64,000 bases of DNA, from NCBI RefSeq assembly GCF_013113715.1, contig NZ_CP053344.1:4030001-4094000 (forward strand). Direction: 5' to 3'. Under the pieces are notes generated by a model. That model saw only the letters and a program-made list of their open reading frames with translations. It did no database searches and was not told the DNA's origin. The first letter of the stretch is position 1; each line of letters opens with the position of its first letter. Origin of the DNA: Herbiconiux sp. SALV-R1. Lineage in GTDB: Bacteria > Actinomycetota > Actinomycetes > Actinomycetales > Microbacteriaceae. Made by a program: the position numbers and the translations under genes. Positions 16,216 through 53,588 of this stretch are shown here, piece by piece.

Positions 16216-17153
16216 TGGCCATGCTCTCCCGCATCGCGGAGTCCCTGTTCTGGATCGGCCGCTACATCGAGCGCTCCGACGGCACCGCGCGCATCCTCGA
16301 CGTGCACCTGCAGCTCCTGCTCGAAGACCCCTGGATCGAGGAGAACCTCGCCTGCCGGTCCCTGCTCAGCGTCATGGGGTCTGACGTGCCCGACGACGAG
16401 CGCTCGTTCACCCGCGCCGACGTGCTGGCCATGCTCGCGGTCGACCGCACGCATCCGGCCTCCATCGCGTACTCCCTCGGTGCCGCGCGCGAGAACGCCC
16501 GCCGCGCCCGCGAGATCGTGTCGACCGAGCTGTGGGAGTGTCTCAACACCACCCGAGCACGCATGCCGCGCCGCATCGCGAGCGAGAAGACGCACGAGTT
16601 CTTCGGCTGGGTGCGCGACCGCGCGGCGCTCGCCGTGGGCATCATGGAGTCGAGCGCGTCGCGCGACGAGGCCTGGCACTTCTTCACCCTCGGCCGCTCC
16701 ATCGAGCGCGCCGACATGACGGCACGCCTGCTCGCCACGCGGTCGCTCACCGAGGCGTCGGGCCCGTCGTGGACGACGATCCTCCGCTCCTGCGGCGCCT
16801 ACGAGGCGTACCTCCGCACCTACCGCGGCGTGCCCTCGGCCCGCAACGCGGCCGAGTTCCTGCTGCTCGACCGGTTGTTCCCGCGCTCCATCCTCTACTC
16901 GGTCACCCGCGCCGAGCAGTGCCTCCGCGACCTCGGCCCGCGCAACGAGCGCATCGGGGTCAGCGACGACGCGCAGCGACTGCTGGGGCGCATCCGGGCT
17001 CAGCTCGAATACCGGCCGATCACCGACATCCTGCAAGAACTTCCGCGCCACATGGACGGTGTGCAGGAGGCCACGAGTGCCGCGTCGGAGGCCATCCGGC
17101 AGCGCTACTTCCCCACCAACGCCGCCCCCAGCTGGATCGGAGAGAGCGCATGA
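16215..17153 (+). CDS. Alpha-E domain protein (DUF403)
   Basis: Helical protein of 312 residues in the alpha-E family. The start MAMLSRIAESLFWIGRYIER and the internal FFTLGRSIERADMTARLLAT repeat are diagnostic. Its biochemical role is not established; it is found almost only beside the permuted ATP-grasp enzyme. ATG overlaps the ATP-grasp stop (TGATG), and its own stop overlaps the transglutaminase-like start, so the three are made in step. Confidence 0.9.
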   Translation: MAMLSRIAESLFWIGRYIERSDGTARILDVHLQLLLEDPWIEENLACRSLLSVMGSDVPDDERSFTRADVLAMLAVDRTHPASIAYSLGAARENARRAREIVSTELWECLNTTRARMPRRIASEKTHEFFGWVRDRAALAVGIMESSASRDEAWHFFTLGRSIERADMTARLLATRSLTEASGPSWTTILRSCGAYEAYLRTYRGVPSARNAAEFLLLDRLFPRSILYSVTRAEQCLRDLGPRNERIGVSDDAQRLLGRIRAQLEYRPITDILQELPRHMDGVQEATSAASEAIRQRYFPTNAAPSWIGESA

Positions 17154-17995
17154 ACCGGCTGCGCATCCGGCACATCACCGGCTACCGCTACGAGGGCGAG
17201 GTGCAGGCGTCGTACAACGAGGCGCGCATGCTCCCCGTGTCGTCGGAGGGGCAGTTCGTGCTGCACTCCTCGCTCGACATCTCGCCCGTGTCGTCGTCGC
17301 ACCACTACGTCGACTACTGGGGCACGAGGGTGTCGTCGTTCGAGGTGCTCACGCCGCACAAGGAGCTGTCGCTCACCGCCACCTCGCTGGTGGAGGTGCG
17401 GGCGCGCGACCATGCCGCGCATCCGATCGACTGGGACGGGCTGGCGGATGCTGCGGCCGCGTCGACCTCGTACGTTGAGCAGACGAAGCAGACGAAGCTG
17501 ACCGCGCCCGCCGACGACCTCGCCGAGCTGGCGGCCTCGATCGCGGCCCGGCACGCCTCGCCGTGCGACGCGGCGCTCGAGATCTGCCAGGAGATCGGGC
17601 GGCAGGTCGAGTACGTGCAGGGCGTCACCGGGGTGCAGTCGACGGCGCGCGAGTCGTGGCGCGGCAAGCGCGGGGTGTGCCAGGACATCACGCACATCGC
17701 GATCGGGGCGCTGCGCTCGGTCGGCATCCCGGCGCGGTACGTGTCGGGGTACCTGCACCCGAAGCCCGACGCGGCCATCGGCGAGACCATCGCCGGCGAG
17801 TCGCACGCCTGGGTCGAGTGGTTCTGCGGCGACTGGCGCGGCTACGACCCCACGAACCTCATCGACATCGGCGAGCGGCACGTCATCGTCGGCCGCGGGC
17901 GCGACTACAACGACATCGCGCCGTTGCGCGGGGTGTACGCGGGGCCGTTCGGGTCGCAGCTGTTCGTGAAGGTGGAGATCACGCGGGAGTCGTGA
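17150..17995 (+). CDS. Transglutaminase-like cysteine peptidase-fold protein
   Basis: 281 residues: an N-terminal bacterial transglutaminase-like beta domain (LRIRHITGYRYEGEVQASYN) and a papain-like core with an intact triad: Cys177 in KRGVCQD, His in GESHAWVEW and Asp in RGYDPTN. Probably a peptidase or amidase acting on the ATP-grasp product or on a protein carrier (inferred from the conserved gene triad). ATGA overlap with the alpha-E gene. No signal peptide, so cytoplasmic. Confidence 0.9.
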   Translation: MNRLRIRHITGYRYEGEVQASYNEARMLPVSSEGQFVLHSSLDISPVSSSHHYVDYWGTRVSSFEVLTPHKELSLTATSLVEVRARDHAAHPIDWDGLADAAAASTSYVEQTKQTKLTAPADDLAELAASIAARHASPCDAALEICQEIGRQVEYVQGVTGVQSTARESWRGKRGVCQDITHIAIGALRSVGIPARYVSGYLHPKPDAAIGETIAGESHAWVEWFCGDWRGYDPTNLIDIGERHVIVGRGRDYNDIAPLRGVYAGPFGSQLFVKVEITRES

Positions 17996-18046: not shown

Positions 18047-18130
18047 GCCGAACGACGGAGTTTCGCTCGGGAGGCGGCTTGAGGGTCCGTCGTTTCGCCG
18101 ATCTGGGGTGACACTCCGTCGTTTCGCCCC
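18047..18130 (+). repeat. Three-arm dispersed element R1 (CCGTC subtype)
   Basis: One inverted core (AACGACGGAGT, 18051-18061) is followed by two direct cores (TCCGTCGTTTCGCC at 18086 and 18115). The distance from the end of GGAGT to the first TCC is 25 bases and between TCCs 29 bases. The inverted arm can pair over 11 bases with the second direct copy. It lies in the 294-base gap after the transglutaminase-like gene. The rest of that gap holds a small hairpin (CCGGATG/CATCCGG, 18203-18220) and no gene. Confidence 0.75.
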
Positions 18131-18289
18131 GGCCAGTCGGGCGCGCGGCCGAGGCAGTGGCAGTGGCAGTGGGGGTGGCGGCGTCGGTGGATGCGGTGGT
18201 TGCCGGATGGGCGCATCCGGCGTTGGCTGAGACGACACCCGGGCCGCCACCGGCGCCCGCACGACACCGACGTCGAAGGAGACCACATC

Positions 18290-18571
18290 ATGAGCGACGA
18301 CACGACGAAAGACGGACTCGGCGAGCCGTTCGACCAGACCAACGGCCTCGCGGAGGGCCTCGGCGGTGACGACGACGGCACCCTCGACGGGGGTGCGTCG
18401 GGCGAGGCCGGCGACGGCGATCGCGACGAGCCGGGCGGCCTGCTCGGCGAGAACTTCCGCGGTCTCGCCGACCCCATCGATCCGATCGCCGACGCCGACC
18501 GCGACCCCGAGGGTGCCACCCCCGAAGACCTCGACGACGCCGTCACCCCCTACAGCGAGGAGGGCCGCTGA
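18290..18571 (+). CDS. Small acidic hypothetical protein
   Basis: 93 residues, strongly acidic (many Asp, Glu and Gly; almost no hydrophobic core), beginning MSDDTTKDGLGEPFDQTNGL. A strong ribosome site GAAGGAG at 18275-18281 sits eight bases before the ATG, which argues that it is translated. I recognise no domain; composition suggests an intrinsically disordered, cytoplasmic protein. It stands alone, with repeat element R1 upstream and R2 downstream, and its stop codon overlaps the first of three tandem hairpins. Confidence 0.65.
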   Translation: MSDDTTKDGLGEPFDQTNGLAEGLGGDDDGTLDGGASGEAGDGDRDEPGGLLGENFRGLADPIDPIADADRDPEGATPEDLDDAVTPYSEEGR

Positions 18572-18644
18572 CCGGCCCGCGCCGGTAGAGCCCCCCGCTG
18601 ACCGGCCCGCGCCGGTAGCCGCCCGCTGAGCGGCCCGCGCCGGT
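18571..18644 (+). repeat. Three tandem hairpins after the small acidic gene
   Basis: The palindrome ACCGGC-CCGC-GCCGGT occurs at 18571-18586 and 18601-18616, with a near copy starting AGCGGC at 18629-18644. The first two copies are embedded in a 30-base direct repeat (CCGCTGACCGGCCCGCGCCG...), the third is 28 bases on. They begin exactly at the stop codon of the acidic protein gene and probably act as a terminator or transcript-stabilising structure. Confidence 0.6.
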
Positions 18645-18663
18645 AGCCGCCCGCGCACGCTCG

Positions 18664-18746
18664 AACTCGATGGAGTCCCCGGCCCGATTCGGGCTGAGGC
18701 TCCATCCGTTTCCCTCAGGAGCCAGAAACTCCATCCGTTCCGGGCG
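18664..18746 (+). repeat. Three-arm dispersed element R2 (CCATC subtype)
   Basis: Inverted core CTCGATGGAGT (18666-18676), then direct cores at 18701 (TCCATCCGTTTCC) and 18730 (TCCATCCGTTCCGGG). Spacings are 25 and 29 bases, identical to R1, although the core is a different subtype. It lies in the 240-base gap before the hydrolase gene, 66 bases ahead of its start. Confidence 0.75.
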
Positions 18747-43547: not shown

Positions 43548-43633
43548 GTGCAAACTCGATGGACTTTCGGCGCTTCTCCGGAATCGGATGGACTCTCGTG
43601 TCCGAATGGAGTCCGGTCTCCATCCGTTTCGGG
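43548..43633 (-). repeat. Three-arm dispersed element R3 (CCATC subtype, reversed)
   Basis: Read on the minus strand: inverted core GAAACGGATGGAGA (ends 43617), direct cores at 43592 (TCCATCCGATTCCGG) and 43563 (TCCATCGAGTTTGC). Spacings 25 and 29, as in the other four elements. An extra ACTCCATTCGG copy sits in the first spacer. It lies between the end of the last gene of the secretion locus and the efflux promoter. Confidence 0.7.
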
Positions 43634-43651: not shown

Positions 43652-44146
43652 TCAGGCGCCGAAGATCTTGCCGAAGAGGCCCTTGCGGCGGGGTTCCCAG
43701 CCGGCGGCTTCGAGGGTGTCGATGACGGGTTGTTTGATCTCGTCGGTGTCGAAGGTGTAGCCGTACGTCTGGCCGACGGTCTCGCCCTGGCGGTCGGTGA
43801 CCTTGGCGAGGATGGCGGCGCCGAGGTTAAACGAGTACGACTTCTTGTGGCCGCGGAAGGTGGAGCGCTCGTAGGAGAGGCCGATGCCGTCGCCGCCCGC
43901 CGAGAGGCCGCCGCGTTCGACGGTCTCCTGCTCGTCGAAGGAGTACGTGCCCTTCTCCTCGTCGAGCAGCACCCAGAGGGTGTAGTCGGCGTCGAGCGAT
44001 TGGGCGCCGAGCACGGCCGCCCACTTCTGGTTCGCGTAGTTCCAGCGGCCGACGACCCCCGCATCCGTCGGCTCGTAGACGAACGGCAGTTCGTCGTTGT
44101 TGAGGGCGAGGATGCTCGCCTGGGCCTCGTGGAAGGTGGTCGCCAT
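43652..44146 (-). CDS. Unrecognised protein at the end of the WXG100 locus
   Basis: 164 residues, no signal peptide or membrane helix, mixed alpha/beta composition with several aromatic-rich strands (YTLWVLLDEEKGTYSFDEQE; GHKKSYSFNLGAAILAKV). I recognise no family. Starts 17 bases after the LpqN-like gene and is the last gene in the minus-strand series, so it may be an accessory or chaperone-like factor for the WXG100 proteins (inference from position only). ATG 44146 chosen because the longer frame overlaps the preceding gene. Confidence 0.7.
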   Translation of the reverse strand: MATTFHEAQASILALNNDELPFVYEPTDAGVVGRWNYANQKWAAVLGAQSLDADYTLWVLLDEEKGTYSFDEQETVERGGLSAGGDGIGLSYERSTFRGHKKSYSFNLGAAILAKVTDRQGETVGQTYGYTFDTDEIKQPVIDTLEAAGWEPRRKGLFGKIFGA

Positions 44147-50952: not shown

Positions 50953-51795
50953 CTAGTCGGCCTCGTCGTGGGGTTGGTCGAGCAGGGGGAGGTCGGCCTT
51001 CGTGACGAGGCGGGAGAGCACGGCGTACTCGACGAGGCGCGCGCGGCGGTTGGTGGCGAGGGCGCCGACGCCGCCGCGCAGGCCCTCGACGCCGCTGCGG
51101 CTGAGCTTGTCGCAGACGTTGTCGAGCTTGCGGTTGAAGCGGCTGAGTGCCCAGCCGAGGCGTTCGGCCGCGGCCTGGGAGGAGGGGATCTCGCTGGTGC
51201 CGGTGCCCTCGCGGCGAAGCATCGTCTCGGCGAGGGCCAGGATGAGCAGCTTCTGCGAGACGGTGAAGGTCACCGCGCCGACGGTGGTGGCGCCGCTCGC
51301 ATCGGGCACCGGGGTGAGGTCGACGAAGGTGGGTGCCGAGGTGTGCACGGTGAACTCGTAGCTCGTCGGGCCGGCGGTGAAGACCACGGTGGTGAGGCCG
51401 AACACGATCGGCATGCGGGCGCCCGGGGCGAGCCAGGCCTGCATGGTGCGGGAGGCGTCGGAGACGGTGGCGCTGAGCCGCGACCCCACGTTCGAGAGCC
51501 ACCACATGCCGTCGACGTTGGCGATCTGGAGGAAGCGGCGGTGCAGGTACTGGTTGTCGTCGATGTCGAGGTCGGCTTCGCGCCCGATCTCGAACGGCTT
51601 CGCGGGGTCGAGGGTGAACCACTCGCCGCAGAACTCGACGCTGGCGGTGGAGCCGGGGGCGGGTGCGGCGGATGCGGTGGGTGCGGTGCTCCCGGATGCG
51701 GTGGCCGGGCCGGGTGCGAATGCGGGGGCCGCGGCGGGCGCCTTGGTCTTCGCCTCGTGGGCCTGCTGCTGGGCGGTGGGCCTGGGGTCGGTCAT
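50953..51795 (-). CDS. FHA-like/winged-helix protein
   Basis: 280 residues. An Ala/Pro-rich start, then an FHA-like beta domain (PFEIGREADLDIDDNQYLHR, with the Gly-Arg and His-Arg of the phosphothreonine pocket partly kept, Ser and second Asn less clear), then a helical C-terminal part with helix-turn-helix character (ILALAETMLRREGTGTSEIP; SSQAAAERLGWALSRFNRKL). Its ATG overlaps the kinase stop (ATGA), so it is a likely kinase partner and possibly a phospho-dependent transcription factor. The 178-base gap downstream, before the ATPase gene, is extremely G-rich and shows no gene. Confidence 0.75.
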   Translation of the reverse strand: MTDPRPTAQQQAHEAKTKAPAAAPAFAPGPATASGSTAPTASAAPAPGSTASVEFCGEWFTLDPAKPFEIGREADLDIDDNQYLHRRFLQIANVDGMWWLSNVGSRLSATVSDASRTMQAWLAPGARMPIVFGLTTVVFTAGPTSYEFTVHTSAPTFVDLTPVPDASGATTVGAVTFTVSQKLLILALAETMLRREGTGTSEIPSSQAAAERLGWALSRFNRKLDNVCDKLSRSGVEGLRGGVGALATNRRARLVEYAVLSRLVTKADLPLLDQPHDEAD

Positions 51796-53588
51796 GGGGC
51801 GCACGTCCTCGTCGCGTCGGAGCTCTTGCCGTCGGAGCGCACCACGCTCACCTCGATGCACACCGACCCGCCCGCGGAGACGGGCAGCGTGACGGTGGGC
51901 GAGTCGGTGCGCTCGGCCTGGCCGGTCTCGGTGGAGGTGTACGTGTTCCAGAGGAACTCGTCACCGTTCTGCGGATCGGGGTTCACCCAGCTGAAAGTGA
52001 CACTCGTGCCGTCGTCGGTGACGGTACCCGCCAGCTCGGTGGGTGCGGCGACGACCGCGCCCACGCCGATCTCGTCGACCGGGGCGCTCGACTCCTCCAC
52101 GCTCTCCTGCGCGGGCGACTGCGAACCCGCGTTCAGCGCGAACACCAGCCCGCCGATGCCCGCCAGCACCACGATGCCGGCCGCAGCGATGACGTAGGGC
52201 AGGGCGCGGCGTCGCGGGGCGGTGGTGGTGGCGGCCGCGTCGCCGGGTGCGGGGGTGGCAGGGCGGTGGAGGGTCTGCTCGAGGGGGAAGTCGTCGGTGG
52301 CGGCGGATGCGCGGCCCGCGCCCGCGCCGGCCCCCGAACTCGAGGGAGTGCCGGGGCCGGAGGAGGCCGAGAGTCCATCCGGATTCGGGGAGGTGCCGGA
52401 ACTCCATCCGGTTCGGGGAGGGGTTGAGGTGCGTGGGGCGGCGGGCGGGGTGGCGAGGTCGTCGCGGAGTTGGGTGCGGCCGGTGGTGTCGTCGGCGGGG
52501 GGCGCTTGCCACGACGACGGAGTCGTGGCCGGAGGGCGGGCTGAGGCTCCGTCGTTCGGCCGAACCGGCCCCGAACTCCGTCGTTCGGGCGAAGAAGGTG
52601 CCGCGCGGGGCGGGGTGGTCGCGGGGGCGGGGCCGGTGGGGTCGATGGTGACGATGCCGCGGATGCGGGTGTTGCCGTCGTCTTCCTCGTCGATCTCGTC
52701 GGTGGGAACGTGCTCGTCGAGCACGTCGGTGGGGGTGACCGACATGCTGAGCTCGAGCTGCACCTTCTGCAGCGCGCGGGCGAACTCGAGCGCTGTCGAG
52801 TAGCGGTCGGACTCGTTCTTCGCCATGGCCGTCGCCAGCACCTGCTCGAGCGAGGGGGGCACGTCGGCGCGTCCGGTCGGGGCGAGGCGGGCGGTCTGGA
52901 TGCGGCCGATGAGGTCGAGTCCGCTGTTCGCGCCGCCCGGCACCTCGAACGGCGAGCGGCCGGCGAGGATCGTGTACACCGTGGCCCCGAGCGAGTAGAT
53001 GTCGGCGGCGGCGCCCGAGGAGGGGGTCGCGGCGAACACCTCGGGCGGCGACCACGGGATCGACATGCCCACCGATTCCTGCTCGTCCCCGCCGACCAGG
53101 GCGACCGAGATGCCGAAGTCGGTGAGGGCGGGACGGTTGTATTCCGTCACGAGAATATTCGCGGGCTTGATGTCGCGGTGCAGGATGCCGGCGCGGTGCG
53201 AGGTCTCCACTGCACCCGCCACCTGCACCCCGATGCGGAGCGCTTCAGCGACACTGATCTTCTCGCGTCGGTACCGGGCGCCGAGGTTCGGCTTCGGGCA
53301 GTACTCCATGGCGAGGTACGGCCTGCCGTCTTCGGAGATGTCGGCCTGGTAGATCGTCACGATCGACGGATGCGTCGACAGCTGCGCCATGAGGTTCGCC
53401 TCGGCGTCGAAGCTCTCGCGCGCCCCGTCGGTGAGTGCCTCCCGCAGGAGCACCTTGATGGCCACGCGGCGGCGCGGCATCCGCTGTTCGTAGAGGAAGA
53501 CGTCGGCGAACCCGCCCGAACCGAGCAGCTGAACGTAGCTGAAGCCCGGGATCTCGGGGGGCGCGGAGGGCGGGCGGCGGGCGTTCAC
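51792..53588 (-). CDS. Membrane Ser/Thr protein kinase (Hanks type)
   Basis: 598 residues. Kinase domain about 15-280: glycine loop LLGSGGFADVFLY, catalytic Lys45 in VAIKVL, HRDIKPANIL, TDFGIS in place of DFG context, and SIPWSPPEV. A Pro/Ser/Thr-rich linker (about 290-445), a single membrane helix (about 453-476) and an extracellular FN3-like domain (VTFSWVNPDPQNGDEFLWNT) follow. The linker contains two copies of the dispersed element (R5 at residues about 331-359 and R4 at about 390-417), translated in frame. GTG start overlaps the preceding FHA stop by four bases. Targets are probably the FHA partners in the same operon. Confidence 0.93.
   Translation of the reverse strand: MNARRPPSAPPEIPGFSYVQLLGSGGFADVFLYEQRMPRRRVAIKVLLREALTDGARESFDAEANLMAQLSTHPSIVTIYQADISEDGRPYLAMEYCPKPNLGARYRREKISVAEALRIGVQVAGAVETSHRAGILHRDIKPANILVTEYNRPALTDFGISVALVGGDEQESVGMSIPWSPPEVFAATPSSGAAADIYSLGATVYTILAGRSPFEVPGGANSGLDLIGRIQTARLAPTGRADVPPSLEQVLATAMAKNESDRYSTALEFARALQKVQLELSMSVTPTDVLDEHVPTDEIDEEDDGNTRIRGIVTIDPTGPAPATTPPRAAPSSPERRSSGPVRPNDGASARPPATTPSSWQAPPADDTTGRTQLRDDLATPPAAPRTSTPPRTGWSSGTSPNPDGLSASSGPGTPSSSGAGAGAGRASAATDDFPLEQTLHRPATPAPGDAAATTTAPRRRALPYVIAAAGIVVLAGIGGLVFALNAGSQSPAQESVEESSAPVDEIGVGAVVAAPTELAGTVTDDGTSVTFSWVNPDPQNGDEFLWNTYTSTETGQAERTDSPTVTLPVSAGGSVCIEVSVVRSDGKSSDATRTCAP
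52337..52418 (+). repeat. Three-arm element R4 (CCATC subtype) inside the kinase gene
   Basis: Inverted core AACTCGAGGGAGT (52337-52349), direct cores at 52374 (TCCATCCGGATTCGGGG) and 52403 (TCCATCCGGTTCGGGG); spacings 25 and 29. It is antisense to the kinase and translated there as a Ser/Pro/Gly-rich stretch. The inverted arm has one mismatch to the direct cores. Confidence 0.75.
52511..52595 (+). repeat. Three-arm element R5 (CCGTC subtype) inside the kinase gene
   Basis: Inverted core ACGACGGAGT (ends 52523), direct cores at 52548 (TCCGTCGTTCGG) and 52577 (TCCGTCGTTCGGGCG); spacings 25 and 29. Only 92 bases from R4 but of the other core subtype, so the two are not a simple local duplication. 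Its spacer shares GGGCTGAGGCTCC with R2 at 18691. Confidence 0.75.

Follow-up and report, generated by a model that had tools for sequence, protein, structure and literature searches.

Genomes of Herbiconiux (Microbacteriaceae) carry a dispersed element of ~80 bases in which a single short word occurs three times at rigid distances, and dozens of copies lie mostly behind the ends of genes. It is best read as a REP/BIME-like 3'-end element, with a putative DNA-binding factor as its reader and a terminator hairpin as an optional addition. REP/BIME-like repeats have been known for decades, and their role is still argued over. Five copies, R1 to R5 (Table 1), lie in the window, the whole 64-kb stretch of DNA analyzed here (positions 4030001-4094000 of contig 1 in the 4.52-Mb genome G000, referred to as the own genome), at the positions claimed in an earlier note on this DNA. 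The word is ~13 bp long; its inverted copy is named arm A and its two direct copies arms B and C, with word starts 34 bp apart from A to B and 29 bp apart from B to C. The equal distances reported earlier hold in all five elements, each being an exact GA.GGAG - 25 nt - TCC.TC - 23 nt - TCC.TC (the '29' of the earlier note counts from the first base of one TCC core to that of the next, the gap between the cores being 23 nt). The further claim that one subtype occupies all three arms of an element stands for R1 and R5 (CCGTC in 3/3 arms) and for R2 and R3 (CCATC in 3/3 arms), but only in part for R4, where arms 2 and 3 are CCATC and arm 1 is one base from GATGGAG.

Table 1. The five elements of the window and the genes next to or around them (window coordinates)
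Feature	Position	Strand	Subtype or remark	Arm A	Arm B	Arm C
R1	18047..18130	+	CCGTC	18048-18060	18085-18097	18114-18126
R2	18664..18746	+	CCATC	18663-18675	18700-18712	18729-18741
R3	43548..43633	-	CCATC	43618-43630	43581-43593	43552-43564
R4	52337..52418	+	CCATC, arm A degenerate (GAGGGAG)	52336-52348	52373-52385	52402-52414
R5	52511..52595	+	CCGTC	52510-52522	52547-52559	52576-52588
Transglutaminase-like gene	17150..17995	+	3' end with R1			
94-aa acidic ORF	18290..18571	+	between R1 and R2; no Pfam match; conserved in G307			
Ser/Thr protein kinase ORF (PF00069)	51792..53588	-	intact frame through R4 and R5			

Two of the five elements closely follow a gene in sense orientation, R1 at 52 nt past the stop of the transglutaminase-like gene and R3 at 21 nt past the stop of an ORF at 43652-44146 (-); R2 lies downstream of the 94-aa ORF. 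The G288 orthologue of the transglutaminase-like gene is also followed by an element. R4 and R5 are antisense within the Ser/Thr kinase gene, where, on a reading of the translation, they appear to occupy a low-complexity linker between the kinase domain and a predicted membrane segment. The three-arm element is absent from this linker in the kinase orthologues of 10 other Herbiconiux (≤2 substitutions allowed), and two CCATCGAGTTCGGG words lie at the R4/R5 place in the orthologue of the near relative G307. Between the 94-aa ORF and R2, immediately past the ORF (window 18560-18655), there are also three short tandem copies around CGGCCCGCGCCGGTAG, spaced by 30 and 28 bp, of which G307 has a reduced trace at most. 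CCATC and CCGTC elements often adjoin, as in R1/R2, R4/R5 and the loci L068 and L074. L068 (own genome, 1111579-1112269) is an array of six copies, with successive copies 102-107 bp apart except for one gap of 207; the subtypes largely alternate along it, which recalls the order of BIMEs, themselves mosaics of alternating units.

The motif extends beyond what the earlier note described. Over 141 pattern matches at the fetched loci it runs from about -9 to +69 around GGAG, conservation dropping at both ends, with the consensus CGAAACGACGGAG...CGGGCTGAG.CTCCGTCGTTTCCG...GGCCCGAAACTCCGTCGTTTCG; the mid-spacer columns (13-17 and 42-47) hold merely 0.06-0.43 bit each, chiefly an A/T tilt. These matches were chosen by their core, so that core conservation is built in, but that of the outer word, the inner flanks and the boundaries is not. 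All three arms are CCGTC in 121 matches and CCATC in 10; one match is R4-like, three mix CCATC and CCGTC, and six carry some other change in arm A, a few of these six being chance matches outside the genus. Loss of the spacing or mixing of the subtypes genome-wide had been named beforehand as the outcome that would speak against the family; the spacing is kept, and mixtures amount to 3/141. Self-pairing within a single arm (A, B or C) shows no excess over expectation, a tagged hairpin is absent from the consensus, and Rfam gives 0 gathering-level matches in the 64-kb window, with just microRNA families far below their cut-offs around R1-R2.

The rigid distances reappear when they are not assumed. 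In G250, the positions of the exact word CTCCGTCGTT (100 of its 114 occurrences covered, pairs <150 bp) give same-strand pairs at 29 bp (15 times) and 14 bp (once), and inverted pairs at 34 bp (18), 33 bp (1), 63 bp (23) and 77 bp (1). Since the letters of the spacers vary and their length is constant, the geometry itself must be selected or mechanistically fixed. When exact 8-mers are used to look for the three-arm plan de novo, no 29-bp peak emerges in unselected samples (200 kb of G301, 100 kb of G299 and G300), which indicates that elements are sparse there; the reversed-sequence control of this search is uninformative, as reversal leaves the plan unchanged. Intergenic DNA, examined for direct 8-mer repeats, likewise gives no 29-bp peak in the samples from G307, G301, G299 and G300 and shows one in the window only, and 10-mer over-representation in samples of 100-200 kb does not reveal the dialect words described below.

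In the own genome, the strict pattern GGAG-25-TCCRTC-23-TCCRTC has 39 copies (20 + 19), and its reversed control 0 + 0. A looser pattern (gaps of 22-28 and 20-32) returns 75 matches vs. 35 in its control; two of these were judged, on reading, to be off-spacing members of the family, at 642774 (one base short) and 2495565 (shortened between arms 2 and 3). Among 299 genomes of the family Microbacteriaceae, eight have a strict match and five of these are Herbiconiux (39, 37, 24, 16 and 6 copies); the single matches outside the genus (G131, G133 and G186) proved on reading to be unlike the element, and more than one strict match is found in Herbiconiux only. Within a set of 16 Herbiconiux genomes, nine have the strict pattern (39, 37, 24, 19, 16, 12, 10, 6 and 3 copies) and seven have none. 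A stricter pattern run over 84,980 species genomes finds 72 stretches, 71 of them in Herbiconiux or the same genus group; the remaining one, in Methylobacterium (L120), is without the rest of the word and was taken as chance. A phage or plasmid origin was rejected, as the strict pattern is not found in viral contigs and R1 with its flanks has no match among phage or plasmid records. The exact word CTCCGTCGTT occurs 67 times in the own genome. The own genome also holds, as side matches at L006 (1501-1577) and L009, a different palindromic word, ACGGACAAAGTCCGTC / GACGGACTTTGTCCGTC, that possibly belongs to a separate repeat family. The density of the heptamer GCATCCG/CGGATGC in the window is ~2.7 times higher between genes than in coding DNA (3.56 vs. 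1.32 per kb), with a similar excess in G307 (L301-L319; 2.82 vs. 1.03 per kb) and no intergenic excess in G301 (1.05 vs. 1.28 per kb coding).

While the word differs between some species of Herbiconiux, the layout is kept. The words CTCCGTCGTT, CTCCATCCGTT, TTCCTCCGTT and CCTCCCGA are found among different genomes, the first two together in the own genome and G305, and CCTCCCGA replaces the usual word in G299 and G301. A search for pairs of CCTCCCGA with a free gap of 10-35 yields 21 pairs in G301 and 34 in G299 (reversed controls, 0 and 1). Direct spacings in G301 are 19 (7 pairs), 29 (10) and 30 (4), all 21 fitting a rule of 19 or 28-30; in G299 they are 19 (15), 18 (1), 28-30 (15) and other (3), and 30/34 fit. 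At the loci of these two genomes, inverted pairs <35 bp are all exactly 17 apart (11/11), and longer ones fall at 35-36 (8), 46-47 (10), 54 (1), 64 (1, in opposite order) and 65 (6). The usual plan is word' -19- word' -17- word -29- word, in either direction, and 10 of the 20 loci (some overlapping) are convergent and 10 codirectional. The two spacing classes, 19 and 29, are about one helical turn apart. The G306 word TTCCTCCGT keeps 29 bp in 3/3 pairs. Dialects are also found at the same genes: behind both sdhB and fumC, G306 has TTCCTCCGTT arms with B and C 29 bp apart and G301 has CCTCCCGA arms at a spacing of 29, and in G299 fumC has the CCTCCCGA word at 30 and sdhB two copies 19 bp apart together with an imperfect one at 30. 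Judged by eye, sdhB is followed in G300 and G304 by a hairpin whose 3' arm is copied again ~24 nt further and in G011 by a plain hairpin, and fumC in G093 by an ordinary hairpin with a T5 run instead of the element (the G093 sdhB flank is uninformative). G300, which has no CCGTC word, holds between convergent genes (L239, 4061-4186) the series GGCTGAGTCGCGGC - 30 bp - GGCTGAGTCGCGGC - hairpin - GCCGCGACTCAGCC; this triple is the same plan with an unrelated word.

The copies lie at gene ends and show a bias toward the sense orientation. With our own simple codon-usage gene caller, context was obtained for 131 of 137 deduplicated copies: 75 are between convergent genes, 31 are codirectional in the sense orientation, 9 codirectional and reversed, 6 divergent and 10 inside ORF calls (77, 31, 9, 6 and 11, with one at an edge, under a looser gene cut-off that includes some chance matches). 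Convergent intergenic regions thus hold 75 of the 121 intergenic copies on 27% of the intergenic length, and sense copies outnumber reversed ones 31:9 (p 0.0007), beginning at a median of 25 nt (quartiles 19-38) past the stop codon. Neighboring genes in the own genome, named from the Pfam matches of 20 proteins, include icd, sdhB, fumC, dcd, ftsY, uvrB, dnaE, a sufU-like gene, a DEAD-box helicase and a thiolase; they are mostly housekeeping genes and belong to no single pathway.

Some of these 3' ends have kept their element across species. Among the fetched strict copies, the 3' end of fumC is occupied in seven genomes, that of sdhB in five, dcd in four and icd in three (the icd group includes flips), with diverged spacers at all four genes. 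Orthologous pairs in which a shared gene reads toward the element have the same orientation in 54 cases and are flipped in 9, the pairs not being independent of each other. When the gene, instead of the word, was used to pick the 3' ends (16 genomes for sdhB and 15 for fumC, G303 having a fumC fragment at a contig end), inspection by eye finds A-B behind sdhB in 9/9 genomes with the usual word, with arm C exact in 5/9, degenerate in 3/9 and absent in G205. The element likewise follows fumC in 8/8 readable genomes with the usual word, also by eye, arm C being degenerate in G250 and B-C measuring 28 bp in G302. The sdhB word is CCATC in the own genome and G305 and CCGTC in seven other species, so a site can change the word in its arms.

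Copies are turned over as well as inherited. The near relative G307 has 3 strict copies vs. 39 in the own genome, a more than 10-fold difference; the compared flanks align at 83-97% identity. Ten own-genome sites were tried there and eight found, equal to nine element places when R1 and R2 are counted apart; for 2495449 and 2140990 the G307 stretches fetched contain no syntenic match. No word is left at 5/9 places (R1, R3, 2048178, 2079254 and 3883814). Since three other species have the element at 3883814, its absence from G307 at that site is a loss. The other four places retain part or all of the element: only arm C at R2, A and B at 2927296, B and C of one of two copies at 3264507, and all arms at 2182317, where the inner loop differs and arm C carries a single-base change. 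G307 also retains the element at fumC. At the element-less G307 sites examined there is no clean target duplication, the surroundings having diverged, and precise insertion boundaries were not found at these sites or in the kinase orthologues, where the flanks are too diverged. Twelve G250 copies at scattered places of the genome closely resemble each other in their inner sequence. The three compared with their surroundings, at the G250 loci L178, L181 and L185, have the element near the center of an inverted-repeat composite of 350-400 bp with its own GACATGTTCG...CGAACATGTC arms. The earlier note saw no transposase nearby and suggested a search for one of the RAYT kind; as far as the Y1/RAYT class goes, Y1_Tnp (PF01797) has 0 matches in the nine genomes with the word. 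The single Y1_Tnp (IS200/IS605-type) among the 16 Herbiconiux lies in G011 (C11:24558-24878, L280), a genome without elements. Mobilization by RAYT was accordingly rejected for Y1 transposases.

Matched arms had been explained in the earlier note either by switchable hairpins, in which arm A pairs with B or C, or by one protein bound to all three sites. Covariation of A with B and of A with C is apparent among pooled copies; this is a between-species plus between-subtype effect. When copies are shuffled within species and subtype, z is 1.3 for outer A-B, 0.2 for outer A-C and -1.0 for inner A-C, and the direct pair B-C gives 1.6 (outer) and 0.8 (inner). Inner A-B alone covaries (z 3.6; G155 3.7, G250 1.9, four smaller genomes pooled 2.0, own genome 0.5), with one control (sum 33, inner, pooled set) also at z 2.1. 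Repair of 10% of the mismatches would give z 4-5, and the negative A-C result therefore carries weight. The switch between A-B and A-C pairing, which fitted the pooled data, was rejected on these shuffles and the power check, and the protein option is the one supported. As the arms drift independently within species, they are best seen as copies of a recognized word. A terminator-like A-B stem is an optional refinement: a long inner stem (≥8/10) is present in 27 of 137 copies vs. 16 ± 3 in the shuffle, shuffling the spacers weakens the A-B fold (mean z per group, -0.7 to -2.2), and the 8 nt past B hold on average 2.6 T, largely the word's own, which is no real U-tract.

Several known systems resemble the element in part. 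In the excerpted text of PMC3733652, REPs lie behind stop codons of convergent or same-direction genes and occasionally within genes, CGTC REPs have no dedicated transposase, and untagged REP-like families are mentioned in M. tuberculosis; the word Actinobacteria is absent from that text. The Herbiconiux element shares the dispersed intergenic 3' placement of those REPs, at convergent and same-direction genes, together with some intragenic copies and species-specific sequence types. However, a REP unit is a palindrome of 20-40 bp with a GTAG/CGTC tag, whereas the Herbiconiux unit is a non-palindromic word repeated three to four times at rigid distances, with no RAYT found. Given the absence of a palindromic tagged unit, we consider the element a variant of the REP/BIME kind and not a REP member, a comparison drawn with the tagged REPs. 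REPINs, RAYT-linked REP doublets according to PMC3116915, are likewise inverted pairs of a genome-specific word able to form a hairpin. The Herbiconiux element differs by its additional direct copy 29 bp on, by its retention at orthologous gene ends, and in that element-bearing genomes have no RAYT. The neisserial DUS, in the portion of PMC3630211 consulted, have species dialects, terminator-like inverted pairs at 3' ends and thousands of copies per genome. The element resembles them in its short word, which varies in dialect between species and forms inverted pairs behind genes, but it has tens of copies instead of thousands and a rigid three- or four-site geometry. Intrinsic terminators share the position just past stop codons and, at some sites (sdhB, fumC), the strong A-B hairpin, but the element has no U-tract beyond the TTT of the word, a word shared genome-wide and a third arm downstream, and the extended stem is missing in most copies. 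The statement in the earlier note that no family of this shape is described must therefore be narrowed: the three-site layout is apparently new, but the placement is shared with REP/BIME, and the dialects and terminator-like inverted pairs with the neisserial DUS. No Herbiconiux or Microbacteriaceae family of this kind is among the matches listed in the open-licence literature; the Herbiconiux pangenome paper (PMC10011130), searched by term, yields one irrelevant 'repeat' and none of the terms palindrome, intergenic and transposase.

A DNA-binding protein reading the word at gene ends would be the most economical account. It would explain why the arms drift independently, why some sites are partial and why distances are rigid, with two direct distances allowed that lie about one turn apart; the dialects and the position at 3' ends would be accounted for as well. 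A putative sequence-specific protein would bind the words as an array on duplex DNA just behind stop codons, and the effect may be a transcription roadblock or termination, or the handling of supercoils, at the ends of transcription units. Once transcribed, the inverted A/B pair can also fold into a hairpin in the emerging RNA, and at some sites this has been refined to a terminator-like stem. By an estimate from textbook footprints, a polymerase that has just transcribed A-B would have its front edge near arm C, and arm C could be the roadblock holding polymerase at the hairpin. The protein, duplex DNA as its substrate and the effect on termination or topology are inferred; that the element is a dispersed 3'-end array of words, bound by such a protein on duplex DNA and acting at transcription-unit ends, has in our judgment about an even chance of being right. 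A bolder version, put forward tentatively, is that a fast-evolving dedicated factor marks transcription-unit ends by reading arrays on one helix face (19 and 29 bp) and stops or unloads RNA polymerase between convergent genes; its specificity would have shifted between species, the sites being rewritten in concert (CTCCGTCGTT, CTCCATCCGTT, TTCCTCCGTT, CCTCCCGA) with the geometry kept, as a bacterial counterpart of roadblock termination in which the 'end of gene' words evolve. Whatever the function, it cannot be essential, given the more than 10-fold difference in copies between near relatives, the wordless G307 places and the 7/16 genomes without the word. The antisense position of R4 and R5 inside an intact coding sequence argues against a terminator or roadblock role. 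The low copy number in some relatives, the scarcity of strong stems (just 27/137), the own-genome z of 0.5, the lack of a real U-tract and the 9 flipped of 63 orthologous pairs also speak against the account, as do the similar copies and the composite in G250, which behave as expected of a mobile element.

The main rival reading is a mobile REP-like repeat that is tolerated behind genes. Such a non-autonomous repeat (REP/REPIN/MITE-like) would spread by transposition or copying and persist mainly at 3' ends, since insertions at other places do harm, and the three-arm layout would be the recognition site of its mobilizing enzyme. This would fit the places that are wordless in G307 (R1, R3, 2048178, 2079254 and 3883814), R4 and R5 at a kinase linker that is free of three-arm elements in 10 orthologues, the twelve similar G250 copies dispersed over the genome, with three fetched within a common 350-400 bp composite, and the like placement, 3' or convergent and partly intragenic, of REPs in other phyla (PMC3733652, in excerpt). 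Nevertheless, we regard it as unlikely. Element-bearing Herbiconiux have no transposase of the Y1/RAYT class, clean target duplications are missing from the sites examined, and a sense bias of 31:9 is not expected from neutral survival. Up to seven species carry the element at the same 3' ends, usually without a change of orientation; the spacers have diverged and some sites differ in their word between species, a pattern that independent insertions would not yield. Additional empty sites (R1 and 2079254) left our estimate unchanged, as at least one such absence in G307, at 3883814, is a loss.

An RNA switch, in which A pairs with B or with C in alternative hairpins and so controls termination, RNA processing or a second chance of termination, would account for a consensus arm A complementary to both B and C, for the sense bias of 31:9 and for an inner A-B stem that covaries (z 3.6) and folds better than with shuffled spacers (z -0.7 to -2.2). 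It is improbable, since A-C covariation is absent within species (outer z 0.2, inner z -1.0) in a comparison of good power, arm C can be missing with A and B present (2927296 in G307 and sdhB in G205), and the four-arm plan of G299 and G301 does not suit a simple two-state switch. A word of the DNA-uptake type (DUS/USS-like) that has built up at terminators in inverted pairs and differs in dialect between species would have two hallmarks of the neisserial DUS, the dialects and the inverted 3'-end pairs, by the excerpted account in PMC3630211. This reading is the least probable and was rejected for its low copy number: CTCCGTCGTT occurs 67 times in the own genome and 114 times in G250, compared with the thousands per genome in that account, in which a rigid third copy at 29 bp is not mentioned for the DUS.

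The family separates the question of REP/BIME function cleanly, as it combines short words, exact geometry and dialects within one genus. Near relatives offer full, partial and empty versions of one site beside the same housekeeping genes. Terminators with a U-tract are scarce in Actinobacteria. If a protein does read the words, it would be a general gene-end factor in Actinobacteria, and the way it co-evolves with its dozens of sites could be traced within one genus.
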